A DNA stretch of 49,915 bases from Phycisphaerales bacterium (GTDB lineage: Bacteria > Planctomycetota > Phycisphaerae > UBA1845): positions 3,664,387 through 3,714,301 of the forward strand of contig CP070718.1 in the NCBI GenBank assembly GCA_020350565.1. Direction: 5' to 3'. This document shows, in pieces, positions 12,538-46,829 of this stretch. Each line of letters starts with the position of its first letter. Position 1 is the first letter of the stretch. The notes beneath the pieces were generated by a model, which saw only the letters and a program-made list of their open reading frames with translations, searched no databases and was not told the DNA's origin. Position numbers and translations under genes: made by a program.

Positions 12538-12810
12538 TGTTTGGCATATTCCACACACCGCGCCGCGCTTCCATCCGCCGATTCCGTGGAGACTTCGCAA
12601 ATCCTTGACACGCCCTCGACCGCAAGCTCCAATAGCAACGAGCAGAAAAACCCAGCAGGAGTCGTCAGGATTCGCCGCCGGGCGGACGGGCGCGACCACC
12701 GATGTATGTCCACTACAACACGCGGGCCCGCTGCAGAGCGTTGCGAACATCCTTAAGTGCACCATGCCGACACTTCGAAATCACGCCCGTACCATTCTGC
12801 TAGCCGCTAG
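12538..12810. other. Intergenic, no gene seen
   Basis: The gap after dtd up to the inverted-repeat element. No coding frame with a ribosome site or recognisable protein on either strand. Confidence 0.5.
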
Positions 12811-12915
12811 GAGTCCGTTGAAAAAGGGGACCGGCTCTGAGTGTAGGCCCACTCGCACACGCGAAAACGCCATCCGGCGAGGTGCCTGTCCCCTTTTTCA
12901 ACGGACAGCTAGGCA
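12811..12915. repeat. Inverted-repeat element, AAAAGGGGAC family (copy A)
   Basis: TCCGTTGAAAAAGGGGAC (12814-12831) pairs with GTCCCCTTTTTCAACGGA (12888-12905), an 18-bp perfect terminal inverted repeat around a 56-bp centre; CTAG words flank both sides. Copy B (30794-30897) is highly similar through the centre as well. The core resembles the ends of non-autonomous REP/REPIN-like elements associated with IS200-type (RAYT) transposases; that association is from general knowledge. No transposase is in the window. Confidence 0.8.
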
Positions 12916-15851: not shown

Positions 15852-15895
15852 CCAAAAAAGAACCGGCCCCCGAAGCAATCGCCTCAGGGGCCGGT
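15852..15895 (-). terminator. Strong intrinsic terminator of the giant secreted protein gene
   Basis: On the minus strand ACCGGCCCCT pairs with GGGGGCCGGT (9-10 bp stem, 14-nt loop) and is followed by TCTTTTTTGG. It lies about 60 bp after the stop at 15955. Confidence 0.85.
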
Positions 15896-40329: not shown

Positions 40330-40346
40330 CTCTCGTTGAAACAAAC

Positions 40347-40466
40347 TGGAAAAGGGGACATTCTACTTTTTCCTCGACGATCCAGGTCCCGGCCGGACAT
40401 CAAGCGTGGTGCTCCCGGCCGGGCTCAGCGACCAGGGACGTCGAAAAGTAGAATGTCCCCTTTCCA
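40347..40466. repeat. Inverted-repeat element, AAAAGGGGAC family, second type (copy C)
   Basis: TGGAAAAGGGGACATTCTAC (starting about 40347) pairs with GTAGAATGTCCCCTTTCCA (ending 40466); the arms extend through CTTTTT..TCGA and TCGAAAAG. The centre holds CCCGGCCGG and CCCGGCCGGG, which can also pair. The outer core AAAAGGGGACA is shared with copies A and B, but the interior differs, so this is a related second type. It begins 18 bp after the stop of the UGA-containing gene. Confidence 0.75.
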
Positions 40467-42849: not shown

Positions 42850-44196
42850 TCAGACGACCCTGGCCTTGCAAAGATGGCTAATCAACGAACCGATGAGATG
42901 GTTAAAGCGGTACACCCACCACCACCGCCATAGTCTGCGAAGGACTCGGCTGTCCGGTTGGTTCTTCAGCGCCTTCTTGAGCATCCGGCGGCCTTCCCCC
43001 CACTGCCCCAACCGGACATAGGCGATGACGGCTTTCTGCATGGCCAAACCGTAGTCCGGCTTGTGCCGCAGCGACTCCAGACAGTGGTTCAGCCCGGCTT
43101 TATAGTTGCCCGACTGGAACAGGCACACCGCCAGGTTGTGGTGGGCAAAGGCATGGCTGTTCTCTAGCGCGAGAACGCGACGGAAACACTCCTCCGCGCG
43201 ATCCACCTTGCCCAGCGCGAGGTAGCAGTTCCCCAGGACCATCAGCGCCGAGACGGACGGGGACTTCTCATCGACGGCAGCTTCAAGGCAATGGCGGGCT
43301 TGGTCGTAGTCGCCGAGACGCAGATAGGCCTCCCCCATCCGGGCCCGAAGCTCCTTCTCACCGTCCCCGTCAACACTCGCCTCCGCCAGGCGAAAATGCT
43401 CGATCGCCTTCGCCGCTTCCCCTCTTTCCAGCAGCAGCTTGCCGAGCCCCAGATGAGCCTGCCAGTATGAAGGGTCCAGCTCGATGATTTGAGCCAGCTT
43501 GGCCGCGGCTGCTGCCGGCCTGCCGGATTCCAGCGCCAGCTCAGCCAGGTCGAAGAGGATATCGCTGTTCCCAGGATCGTCACGCAGCTCGGCCAGAAGG
43601 TATTCATGCGCTTCGAGCAGCTTGCCCTGAGCACGATATGCCAGGGCTATGCACTGACGAACGCCGGGATACTCCGGGTCGATGTTCAGCACCCGCTCCC
43701 AGCAATAGAGCGCCCGATCCGTCTGCCCACGCTGCGCAAGTGAGTTGCCAATATTGAAAAAGCAGTGTGGGCACTCGGGGTCCAGTTCCTGCGCAAGGTA
43801 AAACATCTCCTCAGCCTGGTCATGTCGGCCCAGGTCGGCATAGATGGCAACACGCTGGCAGTACGCCGGCTCAAAGTCAGGATATTGCCGAGACAGCTCG
43901 GCAAAGATGGAGAGGGCTTGCGTATACTTGCGCAGCTTGGCAAGGTCGGCCCCGTAGGCCAACGAGATCTCTCGATCACCCGGCTCGAGTTCCAGAGAGC
44001 GCTCATAAGCCTCGGCCGCTTCAGCACATCGATCGAGTTCGTCCAGAATGTAGCCCCGGTGGGCATGCCATGAGGCATTGTGCGGATTGATCTCCAGCGC
44101 GGCCTCGATCTCCGCGAGGGCTTCTTCCCAGCAGTGCGACTCGGACAACTGCTGCGCCCGCTCAACCCGCTGTTCCGCCTCGAACCATTCGTTCAT
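42850..44196 (-). CDS. Cytoplasmic TPR-repeat protein
   Basis: 448 residues from ATG 44196 (GGAAGG seven bases upstream; TTG 44199 possible). At least ten TPR units of 34 residues from about 10 to 400, for example AEIEAALEINPHNASWHAHR, YERSLELEPGDREI, NIGNSLAQRGQTDRALYCWE and NLAVCLFQSGNYKAGLNHCL. No signal peptide, no catalytic domain. The C-terminus is unusual: RRLWRWWWVYRFNHLIGSLI, a Trp-rich amphipathic or membrane-touching helix. Probably a scaffold for protein complexes; partner unknown. Confidence 0.88.
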   Translation of the reverse strand: MNEWFEAEQRVERAQQLSESHCWEEALAEIEAALEINPHNASWHAHRGYILDELDRCAEAAEAYERSLELEPGDREISLAYGADLAKLRKYTQALSIFAELSRQYPDFEPAYCQRVAIYADLGRHDQAEEMFYLAQELDPECPHCFFNIGNSLAQRGQTDRALYCWERVLNIDPEYPGVRQCIALAYRAQGKLLEAHEYLLAELRDDPGNSDILFDLAELALESGRPAAAAAKLAQIIELDPSYWQAHLGLGKLLLERGEAAKAIEHFRLAEASVDGDGEKELRARMGEAYLRLGDYDQARHCLEAAVDEKSPSVSALMVLGNCYLALGKVDRAEECFRRVLALENSHAFAHHNLAVCLFQSGNYKAGLNHCLESLRHKPDYGLAMQKAVIAYVRLGQWGEGRRMLKKALKNQPDSRVLRRLWRWWWVYRFNHLIGSLISHLCKARVV

Positions 44197-45093
44197 CAAA
44201 AGCCTTCCAAGTCACCAGCCGGTGAGGACTTACGGCTACTTCCCATTCTATCCCCGTTATCGGACAGGGGCAATCGCGAGTCCAGACCCAAATCCCACCC
44301 GCAATGCCTGCGCAAGGTAACACTTTGCAGGAAGTTGCCGACTTTGCTGCCTGACGCCTCTGTTTTCTACGCACGCATTGCAGCAGCCGTTCAATCCGCA
44401 CGGCGAGCTTCGACAACGTCTTACGCGCCCAACATAGTCCAATGCGCTAACTCGCTAAGGCACGGTCTCGTAAAGAGCTTACGTCAGTGCCAACACGCTG
44501 ACCGGTCGTTCCGCCGCGCAGGCTGCGTCCTTCATGACATGGTTCCGCATCTCGTCACCACCACGCAGGCAAATGGGACTACCCCGGGTCCGATTCCTGC
44601 GGGAGGATCAAACGGTAACAAGGGTGCTTCGCCAATGCAGCGCGAGCTGCCAGCAAGATGTCGCTAAAAAAGGAGAAACCAATAAAAAGCCCCTTGCTTT
44701 ACGAGGCTCAATGCTGCATACTAAATATTAGTAAATGTAGGCCGTTTGGCCTGGTTCCGGCGAGTGGGCCGGAACGATGATACGGAAGAAGCCTCGCATC
44801 TCGCTGCGGAGAATCCACGCATGCGGCGCAGCAAGAAGTCGAGGCTTCTAATTTGCGCCTCCCGTCGCGTTGCCTGAAAGCACACCGCAAACAGCCCCTC
44901 CTGACTCGCAAGATCGATTAGCAAATGCCATCTTGTGGCATTTCAGGGTATGTTACCGAGAGAATCCCTTGTACGGGAAAGGGGTCGAAGCGGCACGCAC
45001 CGATCAAACAAGCCGCACGCCTCAATCCGCGGCGGAACGCCCGCGCGAGTTGAAACGAGCGGCTTGTGCAAAGTTCCAACCGTTAACCCAACC
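44197..45093. other. 0.9-kb intergenic region with stem-loop cluster
   Basis: No supported gene between the TPR gene start and the thiolase stop (both minus strand). Contains the four-stem cluster at 44719-44849. Small frames here encode Arg-rich chance peptides. Confidence 0.5.
44719..44849. ncRNA. Cluster of four adjacent stem-loops, candidate structured RNA or mobile element
   Basis: Consecutive palindromes: TACTAAATATTAGTA (44719-44733); AGGCC-GTTT-GGCCT (44739-44752); GTTCCGGC-GAGTGG-GCCGGAAC (44754-44775); and AGAAGCCTCG (44787-44796) with CGAGGCTTCT (44840-44849), the last enclosing GCTGCG (44803-44808) with CGCAGC (44827-44832). Spacers are 1-11 nt. The strand cannot be decided from palindromes. 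No known RNA family is recognised. Confidence 0.4.
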
Positions 45094-46278
45094 CTAGCAG
45101 CGCTCGACCGCGATCGCGCTGGCTTCACCGCCGCCGAGGCATATCGCAGCCATGCCGATTCGCTTGTCGTGGAACTCCAGCGCCCGCACCAGCGTGTTGA
45201 TGATCCGGGCACCGCTCGCTCCGATCGGGTGTCCGATCGATACGGCGCCTCCGGCCACGTTCACCTTGTCGTGATCCAGCTTCAGCTCCTTGATCGCCGC
45301 CAACGCAACCACGGAGAACGCCTCGTTGATCTCAAAGAGATCAACCTTACTCAAGGGGAGAGACAGCTTCTCGGACAGCTTCTTCAGCGCTCCGATAGGC
45401 GCCGAACCGAACCATTCGGGCTCCTGGGCGTGGTTGGAATGTCCGAGGATACGAGCCGCCGGCTTGATGCCCAACCGTGTTTTGGCTTCGTCGTCGAAGA
45501 CCAGCATCGCCGCCGCACCGTCGTTAATGCCCGAGGCGTTGCCTGCGGTGACGGTCCCCTCAGCACCGAATGCCGGACGGAGCGAGCGAAGCTTGTCGGC
45601 GCCGCGGTACCTGGAAACCTCCTCGTCCTTTTCGACGAGGATCGTCTCCTTCCGCGTCTTGATCTCGATGGGCACGACTTCCTCCTTGTTGTAGAAGCCG
45701 TTTTCCCAGGCCTGGACCGCCCGATCGAAGCTGGCGATGGCGTAGTCGTCCTGCTGCTGCCGGGTGATATCGTACTTGGCAGCCAACTGGTCGCCGCAGG
45801 TCCCCATGTGCTTGTCGTTGTAGACGTCCCAAAGCCCGTCGTAGATCATGCCGTCGACCAAGGGACCGTCGCCCATGCGGTAGCCGGTCCGTGCCTGACG
45901 CAGGAAATACGGCGCGTTGCTCATGCTTTCCGCACCACCCGCCACGATCAGGTGAGCGTCATCACATTGAATCGTCTGTGCGGCGATAACGACGGCCCGC
46001 ATGCTGGAACCACACACTTTGTTCACCGTGGTGGCTCCGCAACTCGCCGGCAGCCCGGCGCCGATGGCCGACTGACGAGCCACGTTCTGCCCAAGACCCG
46101 CCTGAACCACGCAGCCCATGTAGACCTCATCAACCTCTTTTCCGTTCACGCCGGCACGGGCGAGCGCCGCCTTGACCGCATGCGCCCCCAATTCGCCGGC
46201 CTTCAGCCCGGACAACGAGCCCAAGTAGTTACCGAAAGGCGTCCTCACGCCATGTGTCAAATAAACGTCTCTTAGCAT
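45094..46278 (-). CDS. Acetyl-CoA acetyltransferase (thiolase)
   Basis: 394 residues from ATG 46278 with AAGGAG five bases upstream (GTG 46284 possible). Acyl-accepting Cys 89 in NKVCGSSMRAV, C-terminal GHPIGASGARI (His 350) and CLGGGEASAIAVE (Cys 380) complete the active site, with EINEAFSVV (about 320) and GNASGINDGAAA. Length and motifs fit the biosynthetic acetoacetyl-CoA thiolase group (AtoB/PhaA/ThlA), cytosolic, condensing two acetyl-CoA or acting in reverse. Monocistronic as far as seen. Confidence 0.95.
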   Translation of the reverse strand: MLRDVYLTHGVRTPFGNYLGSLSGLKAGELGAHAVKAALARAGVNGKEVDEVYMGCVVQAGLGQNVARQSAIGAGLPASCGATTVNKVCGSSMRAVVIAAQTIQCDDAHLIVAGGAESMSNAPYFLRQARTGYRMGDGPLVDGMIYDGLWDVYNDKHMGTCGDQLAAKYDITRQQQDDYAIASFDRAVQAWENGFYNKEEVVPIEIKTRKETILVEKDEEVSRYRGADKLRSLRPAFGAEGTVTAGNASGINDGAAAMLVFDDEAKTRLGIKPAARILGHSNHAQEPEWFGSAPIGALKKLSEKLSLPLSKVDLFEINEAFSVVALAAIKELKLDHDKVNVAGGAVSIGHPIGASGARIINTLVRALEFHDKRIGMAAICLGGGEASAIAVERC

Positions 46279-46829
46279 GACCACTCCTTACCCGTCGCCC
46301 AGATGCTCAACTGAATCCGCCGAGACCGGGAGACCACGGTGACTCACTGTTGCCGCGCCCGATCCCGCAACCGCACCAGTCGGCGGAGCATCCCGGGCGC
46401 ACGATTGAATAACCAGCTTCGCGAACACTCGGGACGGGGCCTCGACCTGCCTGGCGCTCGCGGCACCTGAGAGTCCCGCGTGTCCACACGCCTCGATGCA
46501 GGCGCGTCGCCGAGCACCGTAGCGGCCCATTTCAGGCTGGGCGATCCGGCCGCTCGCAAGCAAACGTTTGCCCTAAGCCCGACGGCCTCCTGCGCGTTGG
46601 CAGCGACCCTCACGCCAGATAAAGGTTACACCACGACTGCACGAGGAAGGTTCATCCTAGTGTAATTGCTGAAGAACGTCCAGAGTGTTGACCGCTTGAC
46701 TGGTCACCGAAACACGGACCCGGCGCGTGTAACAAGACAACGCATGGGTGCGAAGGACAAACGCGTTTGGGACGGAAGAACCGCTCGAACGGCGGCGCCG
46801 CGCGCAGGATGTGCTGGGAGAGGTACGGC
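46279..46829. other. Intergenic, no gene seen
   Basis: 550 bp between thiolase and the HU-like gene. Only a 10-bp palindrome AAACGCGTTT (46759-46768) was noticed. Confidence 0.5.

Follow-up and report, generated by a model that had tools for sequence, protein, structure and literature searches.

Four hairpins in a row in a Phycisphaerales intergenic region: a candidate plus-strand small RNA gene of a family new to Rfam

Between a TPR gene (42850–44199, minus strand) and a thiolase gene (45094–46284, minus strand, with Pfam matches to Thiolase_N and Thiolase_C) of a Phycisphaerales genome, four inverted repeats follow one another at 44719–44849 of the window, as we call the whole stretch of 49,915 nucleotides analysed here. 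What is this row of hairpins, and which strand does it belong to? An initial annotation had offered three readings, a structured RNA, a minus-strand cis-regulatory leader before the TPR gene and a small non-autonomous element, holding that multiple copies with target duplications would mean an element and a single conserved copy with compensatory changes an RNA. All four repeats were found when the sequence was read, separated by spacers of 5, 1 and 11–12 nt. The last one (44788–44848) is extended by an A-T pair (44787/44849) and holds an inner GCTGCG/CGCAGC stem within 44802–44832. Their density is indeed beyond chance, since the folding of 44680–44860 was better than that of all 200 dinucleotide shuffles on either strand (z -3.4 on the plus strand, z -5.9 on the minus strand). 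When 6638 sliding windows of 131 nt were ranked by folding (both strands pooled, GC-corrected, self-overlaps counted), those as extreme as 44719–44849 numbered 11 of 6638 for the plus strand and 4 of 6638 for the minus strand. The claim of four stem-loops stands as to their existence, but the first palindrome, TACTAAATATTAGTA (44719–44733, assigned to no strand), overlaps a -10 box, did not show up in the copies of relatives and probably lies outside the RNA structure. The candidate RNA gene is made up of the other three, here termed H3, H2 and H1.

Other strong inverted repeats occur in the same window. The strongest-folding of all 131-nt windows starts at 40336, and a perfect 20-nt inverted repeat, AAAGGGGACATTCTACTTTT (40351–40370 / 40444–40463), encloses an inner GC-rich hairpin; the 40351–40463 repeat resembles a REP-type element, the kind that goes with RAYT transposases. 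A 29-nt inverted repeat (12807–12835 / 12884–12912, 90% complementary, with GTTGAAAAAGGGGAC / GTCCCCTTTTTCAAC) is possibly a second REP-like element, and a strong GC-rich hairpin at 15862–15895 (ACCGGCCCC...GGGGCCGGT), adjoining an A-rich stretch, is probably an ordinary minus-strand terminator.

Taking gene, strand and structure together, we are highly confident, on the strength of the sequence comparisons described below, that the hairpin row belongs to a plus-strand gene for a small RNA, at about 44694–44856. The predicted gene opens with a sigma-70-like promoter, made up of a -35 box TTGCTT (44694–44699, plus strand) and, exactly 17 nt 3' of it, a -10 box CATACT (44717–44722, plus strand). 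The pattern TTGCNT-N17-CATANT matches nowhere else in the window, with 0.01 matches expected. Across the copies, the promoter consensus 5' of the first hairpin is TTGCCT - 17 nt - CATACT, and TTG with the exact 17-nt spacing was found in 28 copies out of 29, all but L038. The promoter of a single copy is less telling than the whole set, because the picker tried 16 positions and three spacings and kept the best site. Twenty-five of the 29 copies had been found before the promoter entered any search model, through R1, R2, a neighbour gene or otherwise (models R1 and R2, described below, lack the promoter; R3 includes it and is the sole source of three copies, L219–L221). The distance from the -10 box to the aligned RNA is 4–13 nt in 18 of 26 copies and 38–50 nt in seven (L023, L028, L033, L035, L041–L043), while in L029 another site was picked.

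The transcript would span 44729–44856 on the plus strand, about 125 nt, with its 5' end placed about 7 nt past the -10 box and its 3' end within a T-rich stretch, both ends being deduced from the positions of promoter and tail. All its parts lie on the plus strand. Hairpin H3, AGGCC-GTTT-GGCCT, occupies 44739–44752 and hairpin H2, GTTCCGGC-GAGTGG-GCCGGAAC, 44754–44775; a single-stranded linker, GATGATACGGAA (44776–44787), leads to hairpin H1 (44788–44848), with the conserved base GAAGCCTCG / CGAGGCTTC and a variable top. Behind H1 comes the terminator-like T-rich tail TAATTTGC (44849–44856), weak in the window's copy and stronger in many relatives; a terminator scan of 44150–45150 with a loop limit of 8 nt returned no terminator. 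Over 29 copies, the mean T content was 58% in the 8 nt past H1, as against 21% at 12–44 nt past the stem. Most copies measure about 100–130 nt, and the H1 top ranges from 21 to 106 nt, a variation in length that is unlike a reading frame. In the copies of genus g5 (L033, L035, L041, L042), an H1 top of 90–106 nt goes together with 38–50 nt before the first hairpin.

Most matches in a blastn search of 100 genomes, the host's own and those of 99 relatives, were due to chance, but three loci (L003, L004, L006) were recognised as copies. A covariance model of the minus strand (R1), built from these and the window, had matches at E <= 1, in part weak ones, in 27 of the host family's 51 genomes. They contained recurrent C.A mismatches, which become G-U pairs once the plus strand is read; because of these, and of the plus-strand promoter, R1 was dropped and the model rebuilt on the plus strand, as R2 (RNA only, 17 copies) and R3 (promoter and RNA, 18 copies). 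Nor was a stem GCGCA/UGCGC kept that would close off the hairpins, its 5' half falling within the -10 region and its pairing being lost in L034, L039 and L044. Over the 114 genomes of the order, R2 matched 32 at E <= 0.1, 27 inside the family and five outside. Outside the family, the matches L093–L096 (in G080, G095, G101 and G097) proved on reading to be terminator-like hairpins, and the one in G070 (E 0.024) was left uncounted; inside it, the R2 match of G014 (E 0.081) was dropped from the count. R3, run on 26 genomes (24 of the family without an R2 match, G014 and G007), added G036, G009 and G025, and reading 3' of C0, a lipoprotein-like gene, added G043, whose locus L273 scores 47.9 bits. 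Seventeen such stretches 3' of C0 were read: G036 and G043 hold the RNA there, the copy of G025 lies elsewhere, and no RNA was seen in 14, G026 having a chance promoter-like match without hairpins. A promoter scan of 11 further stretches found none.

Altogether, copies of the sRNA were found in 30 of the 51 genomes of the host's family within Phycisphaerae, a class of Planctomycetota, whereas no copy was found in the other 21, several of them nearly complete and 14 of them those whose stretch 3' of C0 was read. The host genome, a single contig of 3.8 Mb with a listed completeness of 67%, has one copy. Over the class (397 genomes), R3 matched 26 genomes at E <= 0.01, all within the family, and over the phylum (392 genomes) it returned the own genome and three look-alikes (L323–L325), of which one only resembles the promoter, one is the promoter region ahead of a gene start and one is a terminator; both scans used stricter filters, under which diverged copies may be missed. 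Two of these loci from other phylum members, L323 and L324 (at about 1500–1530), carry TTGCTT-17-CATAAT and TTGCAT-17-TATAAT, which resemble the sRNA promoter; the one in L324 precedes, by eye, the start of a GAPDH-like gene, and this may be a form that housekeeping promoters of the phylum commonly take.

Named records were also scanned, with the pattern GAAGCCTCGC, an unspecific one that many ordinary terminators match. At least 118 stretches fitted it, and among the matches listed there were 80 loci, four of them true copies by R2 (70.3–84.5 bits): JAAEQG010001366 (bacterium Gpa_12), JAGVHG010000071 and JAGLWJ010000334 (Phycisphaerae bacteria) and JADFRO010000303 (Planctomycetota bacterium). 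The remaining 76 of the listed loci scored at most 31.1 bits with R2 and were used as decoys. Because decoys reach 31.1 bits, the low-scoring copies (with R2, G004 at 33.3, G048 at 26.9 and G034 at 26.2 bits; with R3, G025 at 27.9 bits) were accepted with the help of the promoter, of genus mates or of a reading of the sequence. Additional weak R2 matches in G035, G047, G038 and G080, at 21–24.5 bits, fall under the decoy scores.

Conservation of the structure was assessed in two alignments, a MAFFT alignment of 17 copies (A5) and a model-fitted one of 31 rows from 30 loci (A8), the latter including one antisense match within L026 and one row clipped at its 3' end. In A5, 96.4% of 391 cells are paired, and pairing falls to 50–52% when the partner is slid by one column. 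Changes on both sides of a pair occur in A5 at 12 of 23 pairs and in 35 cells, where 500 shuffles give 6.3 and 12.0, and in A8 in 83 cells, against 22.4 in shuffles. Of five measures, one did not depart from the shuffles, namely the number of further pair types in A5 (26 as against 24.0, a value reached by 86 of the 500 shuffles). Both controls lean towards structure, because kinship is ignored in the shuffles and the alignment under test also supplied the structure. The double changes in A8 touch all 13 pairs of H3 and H2 (5/5 and 8/8, respectively; 4/5 and 6/8 in A5). In H1, 97.3% of cells are paired, and double changes are found at 5/10 pairs in A8 and 2/10 in A5; its base is near-fixed in most copies, the double changes in A8 coming from diverged ones. 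As far as these alignments go, the secondary structure is conserved with compensatory changes. Single in its own genome, recurring in relatives and covarying above shuffles, the locus thus bears out the structured-RNA reading by the very test that the initial annotation had put forward, a covariance search of the genome and its relatives.

The strand was judged from wobble pairs, a G-U pair on one strand being an A-C mismatch on the other. A5 holds 28 G-U against 3 A-C cells. Under strand-symmetric scoring of 18 copies, H1 has 11 G-U and no A-C cells; H2 (18 G-U against 9 A-C) and H3 (6 against 5), whose stems were badly chosen by the script in some copies, do not settle the strand by themselves. 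These counts, the promoter and the T-rich tail together point to the plus strand. The minus-strand leader of the TPR gene is therefore very improbable. It would agree with the better folding of the window's own copy on the minus strand (z as given above) and with a run of five Ts on that strand at 44688–44684, but it is opposed by the wobble counts and the plus-strand promoter, and the TPR gene belongs to no cluster common to at least three of the 20 neighbourhoods compared. On the plus strand, the next gene is convergent in the window (the thiolase gene) and at L052, L054, L058 (C2), L062, L064 (C5), C2 being thiolase-like by reading; at other loci the downstream gene is mixed, as far as mechanical ORF calls tell. 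Since the copies do not share one downstream gene, and the one present is convergent at several loci, a leader role would not be general, and no shared same-strand gene directly downstream, as expected of a cis-regulatory leader, was seen in the copies examined.

The upstream side suggests another alternative, according to which the hairpins would be the 3' UTR or a two-way terminator of the upstream genes C0 or C1, the promoter-like sequence being coincidental or serving otherwise. A C0 homologue lies upstream on the RNA's strand in 15 of the 20 neighbourhoods, 181–428 nt off in 11 and with a C1 gene intervening in four (one C0 member has a SnoaL_3 match below the cut-off, and no better one), and the T-rich tail behind H1 would fit such a role. 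The 17-nt promoter spacing is however kept in 28 of 29 copies, and H3 and H2 covary, though a terminator would need neither. Moreover, C0 is missing from five of the 20 neighbourhoods, and a C0 profile search of the window's genome found no match, an absence made uncertain by the listed completeness of 67%; promoter and RNA stay in all these places. We hold this alternative to be improbable, if less so than the minus-strand leader. Less credible again is a diverged housekeeping RNA, that is 6S, SRP RNA or tmRNA. In its favour, the Rfam models of 6S and SRP RNA gave no match in the window's genome, 67% complete as listed. The search of ten family genomes, eight of which have the new RNA, against Rfam however yielded tmRNA above the cut-off in 10, SRP RNA in 8 and 6S-like matches in 6 (two of the six above cut-off), all of them at other places than the new RNA; among the eight carriers, tmRNA was present in 8/8, SRP RNA above cut-off in 6/8 and a 6S-like match in 5/8 (above cut-off in G035). 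This co-occurrence largely refutes identity with tmRNA and SRP RNA, and in part identity with 6S; the RNA itself has no Rfam match. The small non-autonomous mobile element suggested at the outset is the least probable of all: inverted repeats in series in an intergenic region would suit it, but the own genome has a single copy, the neighbourhood is partly conserved in relatives, and no direct repeats of at least 12 nt flank the locus, a length below which shorter target duplications would not show.

The whole is best explained, with a probability of roughly two in three, by a stand-alone plus-strand sRNA gene acting in trans. According to this model, polymerase would start just 3' of the TTGCTT-17-CATACT promoter on the plus strand, transcribe some 125 nt that fold into three successive hairpins, and stop at the terminator-like H1 with its T-rich stretch. 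The near-fixed H1 base and the single-stranded linker that joins it to H2 would be the likely contact surface. The RNA would most likely act on mRNAs in trans, by pairing with them, and would do so with no recognisable Hfq. Base pairing is a tentative proposal all the same, if the likelier of the two modes of action weighed here. TACG occurs in the linker of roughly one copy in three: a script counted 10 of 29, and L091, read by eye, makes 11. The distant L219, L220, L221 and L273 are among them. As for Hfq, none of 14 family genomes (10 carriers) has it above the Pfam cut-off, G028 giving a weak match, and the control with the same model was positive in 5 of 14 known genomes, including E. coli and B. 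subtilis; given these 14 genomes, a mechanism of the classical Hfq type is open to doubt.

The lack of Hfq above the cut-off would also agree with an sRNA that binds or sequesters a protein instead of pairing with mRNAs, with the H1 base and either H3 or H2 as the site; this is the main rival, possible but less likely than not. Both arms of the H1 base are near-fixed beyond the need of a plain terminator, and GGA, the core of CsrA sites, precedes H1 in 16 of 29 copies. The sequence of H2, on the other hand, varies freely, GGA is missing from 13 of the 29 copies, and the repeated motif that CsrB-type RNAs carry is absent; with at most one GGA before H1, and in 16 of 29 copies, the reading as a CsrA sponge was rejected. 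More speculative, and in our opinion unlikely, is an Hfq-independent, lineage-specific riboregulator whose H1 base and linker would bind a protein or a few mRNAs of an undescribed kind. If true, it would give this Phycisphaerae lineage a first regulatory RNA that is well charted. Planctomycete sRNAs are little charted: Table 1 of a review counts 8 distinct annotated sRNAs in Planctomycetes-Verrucomicrobia-Chlamydiae versus 345 in Proteobacteria (PMC9029176). For the present family, promoter, structure and distribution are now worked out from sequence, and it can be annotated with a covariance model and searched for in existing metatranscriptomes.

How does the candidate compare with known RNAs? 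Rfam 15 was compared with the window and with 20 related loci, and the RNA was matched in neither; weak matches fall elsewhere. No description of it came up in the openly accessible main texts of journal papers that were searched. Among the nearest known candidates is the Rhodopirellula-1 motif, a putative structured RNA that Weinberg et al. (2010, PMC2864571) list for Proteobacteria and Planctomycetes, with no Rfam number given; the confirmed copies of the new RNA are confined to one family. 6S RNA (RF00013) is likewise structured and of similar size, but forms one long hairpin with a central bubble, whereas the new RNA consists of three hairpins in a row. Intergenic bacterial sRNAs with their own promoter and an intrinsic terminator are a known general class, and with these the new RNA shares its own sigma-70-like promoter, a size of about 100–130 nt in most copies, the hairpins, the terminator-like last one and the single-stranded linker before it. 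It differs from them in having no Rfam family, no Hfq above the Pfam cut-off in the 14 family genomes and a long, variable top on the last hairpin. By this comparison of sequences and predicted structures, it would be a real sRNA family, new to Rfam 15 and otherwise of known kind.
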